NCBI GenBank assembly: GCA_023441845.1
Contig: JAEZNF010000513.1
Coordinates: 1-10,406 of the forward strand
Direction of reading: 5' to 3'
DNA from: Bacillota bacterium
GTDB taxonomy: Bacteria > Bacillota > Clostridia > Acetivibrionales > DSM-2933
DNA length: 10,406 nt
Shown here: positions 2,040 to 9,745 of the stretch, in pieces
Layout: the number at the start of each line of letters is the position of its first letter
Numbering within the stretch: the stretch's first letter is position 1
Position numbers and translations under genes: made by a program
Notes under the pieces: generated by a model
Seen by the model: the letters and a program-made list of their open reading frames with translations, nothing else
Database searches by the model: none
What the model was told of the DNA's origin: nothing

Positions 2040-4688
2040 ATGAAAAAATTGGTTATTGGAATATTAGCACATGTCGATGCGGGGAAGACAACATTATCGG
2101 AGGCTATGCTGTACTTAAGCGGCAAAATCGGGAAATTGGGAAGGGTAGACAATAAGAATGCCTATTTGGACACCTATGAACTGGAAAGGGCCAGAGGGAT
2201 AACTATTTTCTCCAAGCAGGCCGTGTTTGAGGCAGGCGAGACTCAGATAACCCTGCTTGATACCCCGGGACATGTGGATTTTTCGGCTGAAATGGAGAGG
2301 ACACTTCAGGTTCTGGATTATGCCATTTTAGTGATAAGCGGCGCGGATGGGGTGCAGGGGCATACCAAAACATTATGGCGGCTCCTTCAAATGTATCGGA
2401 TACCTGTTTTTTTATTTGTCAATAAGATGGACCAGAACGGGACGGATAAGAACAGGTTAATAATAGAATTGAAAGAGCAGCTGGACGATGGGTGTATTGA
2501 ATTCGGACAGGACAGGGCGGAGGATTTTTACGAACAACTGGCCATGTGTGAAGAAGTAATGATGGAAACCTACCTGAAAACAGGACATGTTGAAACAGTG
2601 CAGATTAAAAAGGCTGTCAGGGAACAAAAAGTATTTCCGTGTTTTTTCGGCTCGGCTTTAAGATTAGAGGGTGTTGAGCAATTCCTGCAGGGCATTGTTG
2701 AGTATGCCATGGTACCTTGCTATCCCAATGAGTTCGGGGCTAAAATATTCAAAATATCAAGGGATGAGCAGGGGAACCGTCTTACGCACATGAAGCTCAC
2801 AGGTGGAAGGCTTAAGGTGAAGGATGTCTTAACGAATGGCATCTGGGAAGAGAAAATTAACCAGATTCGCATATATTCCGGGCGGAAATTTGAGGCAGTA
2901 AATGAGATAGAGGCAGGAGCCGTATTTGCAGTAACGGGACTCAGCCAAACCAGACCGGGCGAAGGCCTGGGGATGGAGGAAGCTTCAAATGCGCCGGTAT
3001 TGGAACCTGTACTGTTCTATCAGATTATACTTCCGGAAGGCTGTGACCCGAAAGTAATGATTCCAAAGCTGCGTCAGATTGAAGAAGAGGAGCCCGAGCT
3101 TCATATTGTCTGGGATGAGCAGTTACAGGAGATTCAGGCACAGCTCATGGGAGAGGTGCAGATCGAAATTCTGCAGAGCCTTATTAAAAGCCGTTTTGGG
3201 GTTGAGGTGACCTTCGGCGCCGGAAAGATTGTGTATAAAGAGACTATTGCCAATGTAGTGGAAGGGGTAGGTCACTTTGAACCACTGCGGCATTATGCGG
3301 AGGTACACCTGTTATTGCAGCCGGGTGAGCCGGGAAGCGGCCTTAAGTTTGGTGTTGAATGCAGTGAGGATGACTTGAGCAAAAACTGGCAGAGGCTTAT
3401 ATTAACCCACCTGGAAGAAAAAGCACATAAAGGCGTTCTGACAGGGTCAGCCATTACTGATATGGAAATTACTCTGGTCTCAGGCAGAGCGCATAATAAA
3501 CATACAGAAGGCGGTGACTTCAGAGAGGCCACCTACCGCGCAGTGCGTCAGGGCTTAAAGGAGGCGGAATCCATATTGTTGGAGCCTTATTACGCATTTC
3601 AACTGGAACTGCCCGAGAAAATGGTAGGAAGGGCAATGACTGACATTGAGAGAATGCACGGCGTATGCGAGGTGTCGCAGACAAATGGCGAGATAGCGGT
3701 TCTTGTGGGGAGTGCCCCTGTAATTACCCTGAGTAATTATCAGAAAGAGGTAATTGCCTATACCAAAGGTATCGGAAAGCTTTTTTGCAGCTTGAAAGGG
3801 TATGAACCGTGCCATAACGCGCAAGAGGTAATAGAAAGTATCGGATATGATTCGGAAAGAGACGCGGGAAATCCCACAGGCTCTGTATTTTGTGAAAATG
3901 GCGCCGGCTTTTTGGTAGGTTGGGATGAAGTAAAGGACTACATGCATGTTGAAAGCTACCTTCAGGAAATAGATGATTCGTTGGAAGAAACAGCCGCAAA
4001 TCAGGCTTCATACACAGAAGAGAAGTGGATCAGTCTGGAAGAGATTGACCAAATTTTCAATAGAACCTTCTATGCCAACCAGGGGAAGAAGTCTGCCTGG
4101 AAAAGACGCAAACCACCGAGCGAAAGTTATTATAAACCTGTTACCTACGTCAGCAGACAACAGGAGCCGCTAAAAGATGAGTATCTCCTTGTGGATGGCT
4201 ATAATATCATCTATGCATGGCCTGAACTTAAGGAGCTTGCAGACGAGAATATGGATGCTGCCAGAACGAAATTGCTTGATTCTCTAAGTAATTACCAGGG
4301 GATTCGAAAATGCCGGATTATCGTTGTGTTTGATGCTTACCGTGTTCAGGGGCATGTTGAGGAAACAATCGACTATTTAAATATCCATATGGTCTTTACA
4401 AGGGAGGCGCAAACGGCCGACCAGTATATTGAAAGGTTTGCCCATGACAATCAGACAAAATATAGTATAACAGTTGCAACGTCAGACGGTTTACAGCAGA
4501 TCATAATAAGGGGGGCCGGATGTGCTTTATTATCGGCCAGAGAATTGAAGGCCGAGATGGAAGGGGCTAATGAAAGAATAAAGGAATATCAGGAAATACC
4601 GGGGAAAAACCGTAATTACCTGATGGATTCACTGTCACCTCTGGAGAAACAGCAGATGGAAGAACTGATTAAGAAGGAAAATGGTTAG
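2040..4688 (+). CDS. TetM/EF-G-like translational GTPase fused to a Rae1/YacP-like NYN endoribonuclease domain
   Basis: 882 residues from ATG 2040 (GAAGGA at 2022-2027, a rather long 12-base spacing). Residues 1-~640 resemble ribosomal protection proteins and EF-G. The GTPase motifs are AHVDAGKT (10-17), RGIT (52-55), DTPGH (74-78), NKMD (128-131) and GSA (204-206), followed by domains II-V. An EF-G-type domain IV tip lies at 481-495 (SGRAHNKHTEGGDFR). Tet(M) itself is about 640 residues. Here about 70 linker residues, with a basic patch KKSAWKRRK (683-691), lead to a ~135-residue domain at 714-850 closely matching Bacillus Rae1/YacP: LLVDGYNII (716-724), VVFDAY (762-767), ETAD-like QTAD (791-794) and VATSD (812-816). 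The acidic residues D719, D765, D794 and D816 are all present. Rae1 cleaves mRNA in the ribosomal A site, and EF-G-like factors bind the same site. I infer a ribosome-targeted nuclease. Tetracycline resistance is possible but unproven. The gene looks richer in G+C than its neighbours. Confidence 0.9.
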   Translation: MKKLVIGILAHVDAGKTTLSEAMLYLSGKIGKLGRVDNKNAYLDTYELERARGITIFSKQAVFEAGETQITLLDTPGHVDFSAEMERTLQVLDYAILVISGADGVQGHTKTLWRLLQMYRIPVFLFVNKMDQNGTDKNRLIIELKEQLDDGCIEFGQDRAEDFYEQLAMCEEVMMETYLKTGHVETVQIKKAVREQKVFPCFFGSALRLEGVEQFLQGIVEYAMVPCYPNEFGAKIFKISRDEQGNRLTHMKLTGGRLKVKDVLTNGIWEEKINQIRIYSGRKFEAVNEIEAGAVFAVTGLSQTRPGEGLGMEEASNAPVLEPVLFYQIILPEGCDPKVMIPKLRQIEEEEPELHIVWDEQLQEIQAQLMGEVQIEILQSLIKSRFGVEVTFGAGKIVYKETIANVVEGVGHFEPLRHYAEVHLLLQPGEPGSGLKFGVECSEDDLSKNWQRLILTHLEEKAHKGVLTGSAITDMEITLVSGRAHNKHTEGGDFREATYRAVRQGLKEAESILLEPYYAFQLELPEKMVGRAMTDIERMHGVCEVSQTNGEIAVLVGSAPVITLSNYQKEVIAYTKGIGKLFCSLKGYEPCHNAQEVIESIGYDSERDAGNPTGSVFCENGAGFLVGWDEVKDYMHVESYLQEIDDSLEETAANQASYTEEKWISLEEIDQIFNRTFYANQGKKSAWKRRKPPSESYYKPVTYVSRQQEPLKDEYLLVDGYNIIYAWPELKELADENMDAARTKLLDSLSNYQGIRKCRIIVVFDAYRVQGHVEETIDYLNIHMVFTREAQTADQYIERFAHDNQTKYSITVATSDGLQQIIIRGAGCALLSARELKAEMEGANERIKEYQEIPGKNRNYLMDSLSPLEKQQMEELIKKENG

Positions 4689-6341: not shown

Positions 6342-7022
6342 ATGGACAAAATACTGATTGTTGAAGACAACAAAGATGTGAATAAGATGCTTGCAGAGGT
6401 GTTGATCGGTGAGGGCTATGAGGTCTGTTCGGTATATAACGGTGTGGACGGGCTTAAAGAAATCAAGTCAAAGGAATATGACATGATTCTGCTTGATATT
6501 ATGCTCCCATATAAAAGCGGAGATGAAATATTAAAAGAAGTGCGTGAATTTTCGGATATTCCTGTCATTATTATTTCAGCTAAGGATATGACCGGTACAA
6601 AAATAGACCTTTTGAAAATGGGTGCAGATGATTATATAACAAAGCCATTTGATCTGGGTGAAGTTGTTGCAAGGGTGCAAACTAATCTCCGGCGTTTTAG
6701 AAAACAGGAACAGTCGGGAAAGGTCCTTAATTATAAGGATATGGTTGTTGATGACAAAGCAAATCGCATAACCGTTAATAACATGGAACTTGACTTGACT
6801 GCAAAGGAATATCGTATTATGGAACTGCTTCTCAAAAACAGGAATAAGGTATTTACCAAGGCTAATCTTTATGAGACCATCTGGCAGGATGCATATCTCG
6901 GAGATGATAATGCCGTGAAGACGCATATAAGCAATTTGAGGAGCAAGCTAAAAACTGCAAACCCGGATAATGAATATATTGAAACAGTATGGGGACTTGG
7001 ATACCGCCTTTATAAAGAATAA
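6342..7022 (+). CDS. OmpR/PhoB-family response regulator
   Basis: 226 residues from ATG 6342, which follows GGAGAA (6331-6336) at a good distance. A TTG at 6327 would overlap that site and is rejected. The receiver domain (1-~115) has the acidic pair E8-D9, phospho-acceptor D52 (LLDIMLP), S79 in the switch position and K101 (TKPF). The winged-helix DNA-binding domain (~128-225) shows LTAKEYRIMELLL, the recognition-helix region DNAVKTHISNLRSKL and the closing TVWGLGYRL. It should be phosphorylated by the kinase encoded at 8840 and activate the ABC genes, whose promoter carries phased repeats. It is separated from the ABC genes by 92 bases with a promoter, so it can be expressed alone, with read-through also likely since no terminator is seen. 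All key residues are present. Confidence 0.95.
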   Translation: MDKILIVEDNKDVNKMLAEVLIGEGYEVCSVYNGVDGLKEIKSKEYDMILLDIMLPYKSGDEILKEVREFSDIPVIIISAKDMTGTKIDLLKMGADDYITKPFDLGEVVARVQTNLRRFRKQEQSGKVLNYKDMVVDDKANRITVNNMELDLTAKEYRIMELLLKNRNKVFTKANLYETIWQDAYLGDDNAVKTHISNLRSKLKTANPDNEYIETVWGLGYRLYKE

Positions 7023-7057
7023 TCTTATCGAAATCTTTACGTTTTTGTTTTGCCGCT

Positions 7058-7092
7058 TAACCTTTTCTAACCTTTATACTTTATACTTAACT
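7058..7092 (+). promoter_or_regulatory. ABC-operon promoter with phased TAAC repeats, likely response-regulator site
   Basis: TAACCTTT occurs at 7058-7065 and again at 7068-7075, ten bases apart, and TAACT recurs at 7088, so all three TAAC units lie in 10-base phase. Direct repeats of about 10-11 bases are the usual binding pattern of OmpR/PhoB regulators. TATACT occurs at 7075-7080 and 7082-7087. The 7082 copy has no good -35 (AACCTT at 17 bases), which suits activation by a protein bound over the -35 region. Confidence 0.5.
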
Positions 7093-7114
7093 TATAGAAA
7101 GGGCAGGTGAGAAA

Positions 7115-8038
7115 ATGAAAGAACATATTTTGAAAACCAGTAGCCTTACGAAAACCTATCGTGGTGTCAATGTTTTGCAAGGTGTGTCGGTGACTTTGGA
7201 AGCCGGTAAAATATATGGTCTGATTGGACAAAACGGTGCAGGAAAAACCACGTTGATGCGTATTGTTGCCGGACTTACTTTTCCAACCGACGGAAGTATT
7301 GAACTTTTCGGCAAGAGCGGTGATAAAGACCTGCAGGCTGAAAGGAAAAGGTTGGGCTGCATGATTGAGTATCCAGGCCTGATTCCATACATGACTGCGC
7401 TGGAAAATCTCAAATATCACAGGCTGATACGGGGTATTCCAGGTAAGATAATAGAAAACGAGCTGCTGGCACTGGTGGGACTCGATAATACAGGTAATAA
7501 GAAGGCAAAGGACTTTTCTCTTGGCATGAAACAGCGCTTGGGTATAGCTGTAGCTTTGCTTGGAAATCCGGAAATGCTGATTCTGGATGAGCCCATCAAT
7601 GGCCTTGATCCATTGGGTGTAGTGGAAATAAGAAATTTGCTTTGCAAGTTGTGTGAGGAAAGGGATATGACAATTCTCATTTCCAGCCATAATCTGCCAG
7701 AGCTCTATCAAGTTGCTACCGATTATATAATTATACATAAGGGAACAATTAAAAAATCCATTACCTTAAGAGATCTGGAAGAAAGCTGTAAACATCATAT
7801 TCTGATTGGCTGCGACCAGCCTGAAAAGCTGGTAAGCGTTATTGAAATGCAACTTGGGACAACCAACTACAAGGTTATGCCTGACAAGACGGTTAAACTC
7901 TATGATTACTTGGATGACAAGGAGTTAGTGGCAAGAACCATCTTTGATAATGGGATTGTCATTACGGAATATACCATACAGGGAGACACTCTTGAAAACT
8001 ATTTTATATCCATAATAGGGGGTGACCGTAATGTATAA
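7115..8038 (+). CDS. ABC transporter ATP-binding protein, BcrA/LanF type
   Basis: 307 residues from ATG 7115 with AGGTGAG (7105-7111). A cytoplasmic ATPase subunit with Walker A GQNGAGKTT (38-46), signature FSLGMKQRL (134-142; C-loop SLGMK in place of LSGGQ), Walker B LILDEP (155-160), D-loop NGLDP (162-166) and switch H192 (SSHNL). The Q-loop position carries E85 (MIEYPGLIP), the 'E-loop' described for lantibiotic-immunity LanF ATPases and shared by BcrA-like proteins. The ~95 residues after 210 are the family's variable C-terminal part. With the permease encoded next, it should export or clear a peptide antibiotic such as a lantibiotic or bacitracin from the membrane. Its stop overlaps the permease start, implying coupled translation. 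The actual substrate cannot be read from the sequence. Confidence 0.93.
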   Translation: MKEHILKTSSLTKTYRGVNVLQGVSVTLEAGKIYGLIGQNGAGKTTLMRIVAGLTFPTDGSIELFGKSGDKDLQAERKRLGCMIEYPGLIPYMTALENLKYHRLIRGIPGKIIENELLALVGLDNTGNKKAKDFSLGMKQRLGIAVALLGNPEMLILDEPINGLDPLGVVEIRNLLCKLCEERDMTILISSHNLPELYQVATDYIIIHKGTIKKSITLRDLEESCKHHILIGCDQPEKLVSVIEMQLGTTNYKVMPDKTVKLYDYLDDKELVARTIFDNGIVITEYTIQGDTLENYFISIIGGDRNV

Positions 8039-8828
8039 CTTAATCCGGGCTGATTTATTTAAGATGAGAAAATCATCAATGATGAAGGTTCTATTTGGAA
8101 TCACATTTTTAAGTGCTGTAATAATAGCGGTTGTGGCATATATGATTCCAAAAGGAAAGATTGATCCGGGAATGGCTGAAACATTTTTTTTGTTCTCCGA
8201 TATAAACATGATAAGCATTTTGGGTGCCGTTATCGCAGGTGTTTTAATATGCGGTGACTTTGATAATAAAACAATTCATAACGCAGTTGCATCTGGCTGC
8301 AGCAGGGGTTCTATTTTATTAAGTAAAGCAATTGTGCTCTTCAGTGCTATGACATTTATTTTACTTCCATACATCATTATAACGGTAATCGCTTTGAGCA
8401 CAGGTACGAAGTTCAGTATGGGGGCTGTCGGCGTGGGATTCTTAAGTATACTGACACAGGAATCCGGTACAGCTTTCATGGCGTCGGAATTTTTTAAACT
8501 GTTGATTTCCATGCTAACCCTGATAATTGTATATGCGGCGCAATTGAGCCTTTGTATACCATTCGCTGTTGTATTTAAAAAGCCGGTTTTTGTGGTTGCT
8601 GTTTATTATGGTCTAACAATTCTTTTTGCACAGATAACCAGATTAAAAAACAGTTTTCCGACTTTTGAGAGTATTTTCTCTTGTACGCCATTTGGAAGCA
8701 TTTATACCATTACAAAAAATGATGTGGGTATGTTGGACATAGTTAAGACGATTTCCGGCAGCCTGGTATTTATAATTATAATGCTGGCTGTCACATACAG
8801 TATGTTTAAGAAATCCGAAATCAAGTAA
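8031..8828 (+). CDS. ABC-2-type permease, partner of the BcrA/LanF-like ATPase
   Basis: 265 residues from ATG 8031, preceded by AGGGGGTGA (8017-8025). A GTG at 8022 lies inside that site and is less likely. It overlaps the ATPase gene by 8 bases. Six hydrophobic segments are seen at about 20-38, 58-74, 98-123, 155-176, 185-202 and 238-257. The cytoplasmic loop after the second holds the typical ABC-2 coupling motif, ICGDFDNKTIHNAV (73-86) continuing SGCSRGSI. This is the pattern of BcrB/LanE/LanG permeases. Only one permease gene is present, so the transporter would be an A2B2 complex with a permease homodimer (BcrAB-like) rather than a LanFEG system with two different permeases. It functions in the cytoplasmic membrane. 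Confidence 0.88.
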   Translation: MYNLIRADLFKMRKSSMMKVLFGITFLSAVIIAVVAYMIPKGKIDPGMAETFFLFSDINMISILGAVIAGVLICGDFDNKTIHNAVASGCSRGSILLSKAIVLFSAMTFILLPYIIITVIALSTGTKFSMGAVGVGFLSILTQESGTAFMASEFFKLLISMLTLIIVYAAQLSLCIPFAVVFKKPVFVVAVYYGLTILFAQITRLKNSFPTFESIFSCTPFGSIYTITKNDVGMLDIVKTISGSLVFIIIMLAVTYSMFKKSEIK

Positions 8829-8839
8829 AAGAGGGGTTG

Positions 8840-9745
8840 GTGAAAGGTTTGGTAATTGCAGTTGGAATTTTGATTATTATAGTTTGTTTGTTTGCCCTGT
8901 ATATTGCTATTCTCCAATGGCAATTGCGAAACATCAACCGGCAGCTTGAAAAGCGGCTTTCATCCAATACAAAACAGCCTGTTAGTCTGGAACTTTTAAA
9001 TAATGAGTTGAATCAACTGACATCAAATATCAATAAATGCTTCAAGGCGGAGGAAACACTCCGTCTTGAAAGCGTTCACAATGAAAAGAAGTTTAAAGAG
9101 CTTATTGCCAATATATCCCATGATTTGCGAACCCCGCTTACTGCCGTCAAAGGGTATCAGCAACTCCTTAGTAATAGCGTTCTTAGTGATGACCAGCGGA
9201 AGAAACTCGAAATTGCTCAGAAATATGCTGAGGAACTGGGCCGTTTGATTGATCATTTTTTTGAGTATTCCTATCTTGTAAGTACAGACCCGAAAGTTAA
9301 ACATGAACGTATTAATCTTACAAGTCTTGTGACAGAGTGTCTGGCTGCGTCTGTACCTTCTTTTGAGGAACATGGGCTTACACTACAATTTGAAGAGGCG
9401 CCGTCTATATTTGTACTGACTAATCAGGAATTGATGGTGCGTATCGTCCAAAATCTAATCCGCAACTGCATGGCACATTCAGCAGGTGATGTTATGGTTC
9501 TAATTACAGCTTCCGAAAATGCTGTCATATCATTCAAAAACCCGGTTAAAAACGCTAATGAAATCGATGTAAAGCGTTTATTTGAGCGTTTCTATACAGG
9601 AGACCGGGCAAGAGGAAAAACTACAGGCCTCGGCCTGCACATTGTGAAGATTTTGGCGGAGCAGATAGGGGGAACTGTAAGTGCCCATTTGCAGGGCAAT
9701 GAGCTTGACATACAGGTGGAACTTCCTTTGTGCAGGTACAACTGA
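8840..9745 (+). CDS. sensor histidine kinase with a single membrane helix
   Basis: About 301 residues. GTG 8840 after GAGGGG (8831-8836) is my choice, but TTG 8837 and TTG 8849 are equally open, differing by a few residues only. One membrane helix (about 4-27) starts right at the N-terminus, so there is almost no extracellular part. A charged helical stretch follows to residue 80. The dimerisation and phosphotransfer helix has ISHDLRTP with His94. The ATPase domain has an N-box QNLIRNCMAHS (N209), a degenerate G1 region SFKNPVKN where DxGxG is normal, RLFERFYTGD, and G2 GLGLHIV (263-269). Kinases of BcrAB/LanFE-linked systems often show such an Asn variant. Eight bases separate it from the permease gene, so it belongs to that operon and should phosphorylate the response regulator of 6342-7022. 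No terminator follows. Confidence 0.93.
   Translation: MKGLVIAVGILIIIVCLFALYIAILQWQLRNINRQLEKRLSSNTKQPVSLELLNNELNQLTSNINKCFKAEETLRLESVHNEKKFKELIANISHDLRTPLTAVKGYQQLLSNSVLSDDQRKKLEIAQKYAEELGRLIDHFFEYSYLVSTDPKVKHERINLTSLVTECLAASVPSFEEHGLTLQFEEAPSIFVLTNQELMVRIVQNLIRNCMAHSAGDVMVLITASENAVISFKNPVKNANEIDVKRLFERFYTGDRARGKTTGLGLHIVKILAEQIGGTVSAHLQGNELDIQVELPLCRYN

Follow-up and report, generated by a model that had tools for sequence, protein, structure and literature searches.

The fused gene and its homologues

The stretch of DNA analysed here, referred to as the window, covers 10,406 nucleotides of contig JAEZNF010000513.1 (assembly GCA_023441845.1) from a Bacillota bacterium of the Clostridia. Its central feature is a single open reading frame (ORF) for a protein of 882 amino acids (aa), in which a translational GTPase is joined to a nuclease domain of the Rae1/YacP type. 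The domains were assigned by a Pfam search and are listed in Table 1, together with residue counts taken from 78 parsed loci out of 80 genome loci (the best 80 of 587 relatives). Two loci, L011 and L035, were left out because their P-loop reads AHVDSGK, whereas the parsing pattern was the AHVDAGK-type motif.

Table 1. Features of the fused protein and its gene in the window
Feature	Position	Strand	Basis
Fused translational GTPase–Rae1/YacP NYN nuclease, 882 aa	2040..4688	+	single ORF; Pfam; homologues
G domain, residues 4-223	2049..2708	+	Pfam; motifs kept in 78 parsed loci
G1/P-loop AHVDAGKTT, residues 10-18	2067..2093	+	78/78 (motif itself used for parsing loci)
G2/switch I RGIT, residues 52-55	2193..2204	+	R 77/78; G, I, T 78/78
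G3/switch II DTPGH, residues 74-78	2259..2273	+	H78 77/78; other residues 78/78
G4 NKMD, residues 128-131	2421..2432	+	N128 = N 73/78, T 5/78; K129, D131 78/78
G5 GSA, residues 204-206	2649..2657	+	78/78, 77/78, 72/78; A206 = G or S in 6
EF-G domain II, residues 233-305	2736..2954	+	Pfam
EF-G domain III, residues 322-393	3003..3218	+	Pfam
EF-G domain IV, residues 395-509	3222..3566	+	Pfam; median 74.8% identity to window
Domain IV tip loop III GRAHNKHTEGGDFR, residues 482-495	3483..3524	+	K487 at TetM Pro509; H485 at EF-G histidine
EF-G domain V, residues 513-594	3576..3821	+	Pfam
Family-specific module C591..GSVFC618..W628..H636, residues 591-640	3810..3959	+	C591 78/78; C618, H636 77/78
Linker, residues 641-712	3960..4175	+	predicted local distance difference test score (pLDDT) <50 at 652-665 and 677-708
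NYN_YacP (Rae1) nuclease domain, residues 716-877	4185..4670	+	Pfam
D719-G-Y-N722 (Rae1 D7 block)	4194..4205	+	78/78 loci; 50 fused and stand-alone rows; 59/59 short forms
D765 (FDAY block)	4332..4334	+	invariant: 78 loci, 50 fused and stand-alone rows, 59 short forms
D794 (QTAD block, Rae1 D81)	4419..4421	+	invariant: 78 loci, 50 rows, 59 short forms
D816 (ATSD block, Rae1 D104)	4485..4487	+	invariant: 78 loci, 50 rows, 59 short forms

The original prediction, made from the letters of the window, held that an EF-G-like GTPase and a Rae1/YacP NYN domain lie in one chain, and the Pfam search it had proposed found both. Since each of the 120 best homologues among 7984 scored (one being the window's own protein) carries both halves, the fusion is real and a mis-assembly or frameshift can be ruled out as its source. 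Of all regions, domain IV varies least across the family. Median identity to the window is 52.1% for the NYN domain and 15.0% for the linker, which ranges from 57 to 141 aa in length (n = 79 proteins) and is disordered in the predicted structure. Ten odd genome cases were also inspected: in five (L208, L209, L211, L212 and L217) the two halves share a single frame, L210 is truncated by a contig end, L213 and L215 contain one in-frame stop each, L214 has its halves in two frames, and L216 is a short form described below.

The architecture itself is not new. As the original prediction had suspected, homologues are already listed in databases, and the available text of Atkinson 2015 (PMC4342817) describes the same architecture in ten clostridial species, as Tet proteins with a YacP-like NYN domain whose function was suggested, untested. 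The window protein is a further member of this catalogued family. No functional study of the fusion was found in the literature searched, although the main Rae1 papers may mention it. What the present work adds to the clostridial set, as far as the available text of that paper goes, is the replacement of YacP, a sister group without the nuclease and a form without domains IV and V. The mutual exclusion of fused and stand-alone YacP, the single clade of fused NYN domains and the clade lacking domains IV and V are new here.

The nuclease domain is a Rae1 ortholog

The NYN_YacP domain of the window scores 181.9 bits against a Pfam cut-off of 24.6 and shows the Rae1 fold. Residues D719, D794 and D816 align to D7, D81 and D104 of Rae1, which we take to be its catalytic acidic residues, and the D719-G-Y-N722 block and the acids are invariant wherever they were compared (Table 1). 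The block-for-block likeness to Bacillus subtilis Rae1/YacP (PDB 5MQ8, 5MQ9) that had been proposed is thus upheld. Judged from sequence, the window NYN is a Rae1 ortholog with a conserved active site. Rae1 is described, in the parts of its literature available, as an A-site endoribonuclease that cuts translated mRNA in B. subtilis.

In the NYN tree, the fused domains form a single clade (88/95) of 80 rows. Its nearest stand-alone relative, at L171, still resides in an rlmB-yacP-sigH operon, which there stands after the 3′ part of cysS and a putative mrnC (no NCBIfam match for the latter). Stand-alone YacP is encoded in frames of 168–216 aa beside rlmB and sigH, whereas the window NYN makes up the last fifth, at the C-terminus, of a GTPase encoded away from that operon.

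The fusion replaces stand-alone YacP

The distribution of the two forms was examined in 196 genomes from the class of Anaerovorax odorimutans (G001; Clostridia), counting NYN_YacP matches over the Pfam cut-off. Such matches occurred in 133 genomes, 59 with a stand-alone frame (≤216 aa) and 69 with frames of at least 734 aa. Five further genomes have the domain in frames of 313–618 aa and were counted as fused, as all of them exceed the stand-alone frames in length and a piece of the family GTPase occurs in the genome, either on the same contig (G056, G197 and G202) or on another (G168 and G184). The fused form is common in Clostridia-type bacteria (74/196 genomes of the sampled class). In the remaining 63, NYN_YacP is absent at E 0.001. 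No genome carries both a fused and a stand-alone YacP (0/196, against 22.3 expected if independent; hypergeometric 5e-16, with kinship ignored). For the relatives sampled, the original prediction's question whether the genome also has a stand-alone yacP is thus answered in the negative.

Other samples gave a similar picture. In the class of Holdemania (G012), 20/198 genomes pass the NYN_YacP cut-off, with frames of 615–1109 aa and no stand-alone copy, and three more have matches below it. The family GTPase accompanies NYN in 19 of these 20 genomes (E 1e-140); the remaining one, G260, carries the short form. Phylum-wide, 205/398 genomes have NYN_YacP at E 1e-6, with some overlap with the first sample. 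Only two of them have two matches, one reflecting a duplicated stand-alone gene and the other a gene apparently split over two contigs. Among the matches listed, at least 150 rows phylum-wide, 127 are of stand-alone length, 20 of fused length and 3 in between.

The vacated locus can also be recognized. Using profiles for rlmB and sigH built from seven and five stand-alone loci, respectively, 16 of 20 stand-alone loci read rlmB-yacP-sigH in a row, two read yacP-sigH and two rlmB-yacP; the NCBIfam models bear out RlmB in L171, and SigH both there and in L163. At the best rlmB locus of 20 fused genomes, a sigma-factor gene adjoins rlmB in 12, with no NYN and gaps of at most 533 bases, while in the other eight neither a sigma-factor gene nor an NYN lies within about 1.5 kb on each side. 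NCBIfam names SigH in three tested of the 12 with good profile scores (L179, L183 and L186), and identifies the sigma factor of L194 only as a sigma-70-family protein. Read plainly, yacP entered the GTPase once, and bacteria with the fusion have all lost the original gene. The fusion is probably the Rae1 of these bacteria, because fused and stand-alone YacP exclude each other and the old slot now reads rlmB–sigma factor.

The GTPase is a subfamily of its own

With its G1–G5 motifs and EF-G domain order, the N-terminal body is an EF2-type translational GTPase. The original prediction had called it TetM/EF-G-like; the general body type holds, and the identity with TetM does not. The best NCBIfam model, tet_protect, reaches 410.4 bits where 775 are required, and other tetracycline models are further off (278.3 vs 1100; 237 vs 1420 for Tet(M)). 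Among the NCBIfam models listed, no EF-G model passes either (289.2 vs 659.4 bits for the curated model), and EF-G-like frames of about 700 aa occur in addition to the family GTPase. According to the available text of PMC8161019, TetM frees the drug through Pro509 at the domain IV tip, in the tetracycline site. Within the tip loop GRAHxKHTEGGDFR of the fusion family, this position is K487 in 77/78 parsed loci. H485, conserved in 75/78, matches a histidine at the same tip-loop position in the three EF-G rows compared.

Phylogeny points the same way. In a tree of 61 rows with uneven letter make-up and a long TetM branch, the family is one clade (100/99) separate from EF-G and from four TetM rows. 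TetO and TetM are nonetheless the closest solved relatives by sequence, with EF-G domains I–V, 28–30% identity and the same factor fold; the window family differs from them in its clade, its lysine for Pro509, its C-terminus, its scores below the curated tet models and its nuclease. On these alignments and trees, the GTPase is its own subfamily, and 'TetM' is the wrong label. A Cys/His module after domain V, shared with relatives that have no nuclease, has no counterpart in the TetM and EF-G rows compared (three of each). Its residues C591, C618, H620 and H636 may form a metal (zinc) site, which is suggestive only, as the window has N620 in place of H620.

TetM-like genes, defined by a score band of 380–404 bits and a length of 643–644 aa (six genomes with GTPases of 434–507 bits were not counted), occur in 4/74 fused, 3/59 stand-alone and 4/63 YacP-less genomes. 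Since these frequencies are similar, carriage of the fusion does not spare bacteria the need for tetM. Three genomes (G036, G053 and G147) have two TetM-like genes each, and G053 and G147 also carry the fusion.

Relatives without the nuclease

Within the 61-row tree, 13 rows lacking NYN (86/68) are sister to a clade (100/99) of 37 fused rows and two further rows without NYN, one from a Ligilactobacillus salivarius megaplasmid and the other from a viral contig. The two nested rows look like later losses of the domain. In L. salivarius the NYN was probably lost after transfer, because its GTPase nests inside the fused clade. Megaplasmids of this species carry the gene, which in L143 (4986-6920) lies near rpsN, encoding S14.

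A two-gene partnership between an NYN-less GTPase and a stand-alone YacP was also considered. Counting family GTPases of more than 500 bits without fusion in the 196 genomes, these occur in 7/59 genomes with stand-alone YacP and 5/63 without YacP, and the partnership was rejected as a rule. The first figure includes the borderline G142 (507 bits), which falls with the TetM rows in the tree, and becomes 6/59 without it. One genome, G118, has two NYN-less family GTPases (L148 and L149) together with a stand-alone YacP.

A short natural form without domains IV and V

In G260, of the Holdemania class, the family is represented by a 615-aa frame (594 aa from the first Met; L216:846-2690, minus strand) consisting of G, II and III domains, a linker and an intact NYN, and lacking domains IV and V and the module. 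A separate family domain IV–V was not found in this genome, where domain IV–V matches lie only in EF-G-like frames of 700 and 669 aa. A search with the G260 protein returned 59 protein clusters of 569–595 aa among the best 120 matches (within P0121-P0181), leaving out four shorter clusters of 487–509 aa. Column occupancy in the 59 short forms is 97% in NYN, compared with 8% in domain IV, 2% in domain V and 13% in the module. None of five short forms tested with Pfam has EFG_IV or EFG_C, and two longer relatives tested have EFG_IV (below the cut-off in P0183).

Both catalytic ends of the short form are intact. All 59 keep T17, G53-I54-T55, DTPGH, N128, K129, D131, G204 and S205 of the GTPase, and D719, G720, Y721, N722, F764, D765, T787, D794 and D816 of the nuclease. 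G15 and K16 are kept in 58/59, with a gap in the other row, and R52 is replaced by K in 58. In a tree of the G–III region, 15 of the 59 form one clade (100/98) inside a 27-row group (100/100) of otherwise full-length fusions, which itself groups with Holdemania and Massilimicrobiota, both Erysipelotrichaceae. By this tree, the short form is descended from a full-length fusion. The clade probably belongs to the Erysipelotrichaceae, based on the tree and on the source names of P0122 (the sole named member of the 59) and the 509-aa partial P0135, each given as Erysipelotrichaceae bacterium.

The Pfam domains of the short form resemble those of RF3, a G-II-III translational GTPase, but the short form ends in a nuclease and derives from a full-length fusion. 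The strongest hint to mechanism lies here: a lineage has dispensed with the region reaching into the decoding site while retaining the two catalytic ends, so that GTPase and nuclease are what selection maintains. This argues for a GTPase that brings Rae1 to the ribosome, and against drug protection as the shared job of the family.

Possible mechanism and alternatives

The best explanation, in which we place fair confidence, is that the fusion serves its bacterium as Rae1, with a dedicated translational GTPase as carrier; ribosome binding, the GTP cycle, RNase activity, A-site cutting and the choice of paused ribosomes are inferred from the protein families. EF2-type GTPases bind the ribosomal factor site, and the G-II-III(-IV-V) body would do so much like EF-G, TetM and RF3. 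Once the ribosome has paused with its A site vacant, the tethered NYN would cut mRNA in or beside that site. GTP hydrolysis would release the protein, leaving a ribosome on truncated mRNA for rescue. In this way the GTPase would both recruit and time the nuclease. Domain IV would also probe the A site in most members; in one clade the nuclease would stand in its place. The original prediction had likewise proposed that the GTPase carries the nuclease into the ribosome, an idea strengthened by the fused/stand-alone exclusion and the IV/V-less clade; GTP-dependent positioning, mRNA cutting and a preference for stalled ribosomes would be part of it.

Several observations weigh against this explanation. 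The A site is the assigned position of a TetM-type domain IV and the proposed one of Rae1, and in full-length members the two cannot occupy it together. They might take turns, or the NYN might cut at the edge; the linker, at the lengths observed, permits both and does not prove reach. In the predicted structure (predicted template modelling score, pTM, 0.69), the placement of domains relative to each other is uncertain. Bootstrap values had not settled in the 61-row tree or in the NYN tree. The exclusion counts include kin, such that one fusion followed by descent and transfer may underlie many rows, and second NYN matches of about 21 bits, under the cut-off of 24.6, occur in the fused genomes G132, G186 and G003, the last from a separate set of 12 genomes. 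Finally, the existence of NYN-less relatives indicates that the GTPase is of some use on its own.

The persistence of those relatives would also suit a different order of events, in which the NYN acts alone like free Rae1 and the GTPase, with no steering role, comes in afterwards to clear the cut complex or split the ribosome. The long flexible linker is compatible with this, as is the case of B. subtilis, where Rae1 functions as a free protein and, to our knowledge, no such GTPase exists. However, EF-G needs domains IV and V for translocation and recycling, and the short form is kept although it has neither; this order of events is unlikely. Processing of rRNA or tRNA, or subunit assembly, with the GTPase docking on a maturing subunit and the NYN trimming rRNA, seems decidedly unlikely. 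It would have to be squared with the cutting of translated mRNA described for the ortholog Rae1 in the literature available, with the lack of a conserved neighbour, rRNA-related or other (at most 12/79 loci share one), and with the third or so of genomes (63/196) that have no NYN_YacP at the threshold given above.

A role in shielding the ribosome from tetracycline or some other A-site drug, to which the nuclease would be accessory, is improbable. An RNase-based resistance mechanism is suggested in the available text of Atkinson 2015 (PMC4342817), and the original prediction had similarly included drug-bound ribosomes. In favour are the closeness of TetO and TetM among solved structures, the tetracycline-resistance names that several listed homologues bear from their sources, and the fact that TetM acts through its domain IV proline (PMC8161019, as far as available), domain IV being the best conserved part here. 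Against these stand K487 at the proline position, the model scores below cut-off, a clade separate from TetM, TetM-like genes that are about equally frequent with or without the fusion, the failure to find an attenuator-like terminator upstream, and a conserved short clade with no domain IV at all. As the job shared by the family, drug protection is unlikely, and the proposed link to drug-bound ribosomes finds no backing in these results.

Returning to Rae1 carried on a GTPase, it is plausible that much of the Clostridia and Erysipelotrichaceae-type bacteria have rebuilt the Rae1 pathway as one molecule, a GTP-gated, self-delivering ribosome nuclease. The GTPase might recognize the paused ribosome and swing the nuclease onto A-site mRNA, with the RNase of the short clade serving as the decoding-site arm. 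This fuller picture is tentative. Eukaryotic no-go decay combines a GTPase and an endonuclease, and the fusion would be a bacterial one-chain counterpart. Cutting of A-site mRNA, as suggested for the fusion, is also described in the literature available for RelE/YoeB-type ribosome-dependent mRNases. These act in a toxin–antitoxin setting, use no GTPase and have an unrelated fold.

The fusion bears on the question of how Rae1 finds its ribosomes. A Rae1 welded to a translational GTPase, with the free copy gone, independently places Rae1 in the factor/A-site cycle, and the fusion offers a system where one change in the GTPase could suffice to turn off delivery. The form lacking domains IV and V is possibly the family's most telling member, in that it tells which factor parts the nuclease needs. 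Several database entries of the family are named tetracycline resistance proteins (e.g., P0003, P0005 and P0009); if the proposed function is true, such names mislead and may inflate resistance-gene counts.

Genomic surroundings

Clustering of flanking ORFs at 79 loci revealed no conserved neighbour of the fused gene, the best candidates being generic regulators and transporters shared by 12. An Rfam search of the window and seven loci gave no match in the window and three in the loci, none of them at the leader of a fused gene, and no attenuator-like terminator lies upstream of the window gene. PADLOC returned no defence match (0 families at E 0.01).

The other genes of the window, as identified by Pfam, encode a PilZ protein, a formylglycine-enzyme-like protein, a response regulator, an ABC transporter pair, a histidine kinase and a Methyltransf_30 fragment. 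Reading frame 3-632, the first of the window and a partial one, has no Pfam match. The genes from the response regulator to the histidine kinase, with the ABC transporter pair, form one run at 6342-9742, an arrangement that is presumably typical of peptide-antibiotic sensing modules. The Methyltransf_30 fragment, at the contig end (9877-10404), presumably resembles the tRNA-modifying MnmC.

Elsewhere, a group II intron match occurs just downstream of the fused gene at L003:8818-8980. In Agathobacter rectalis (L144; NZ_CP143948.1), the fused gene resides on a 252-kb plasmid beside a BrnT/CopG-type toxin–antitoxin pair. It is also present in two unannotated faecal 'Bacteriophage sp.' records (MT835563.1, 5421-8006; MT835514.1, 15276-17762), at 95–96% query coverage and 52–54% identity, and these records may be mislabelled host DNA.

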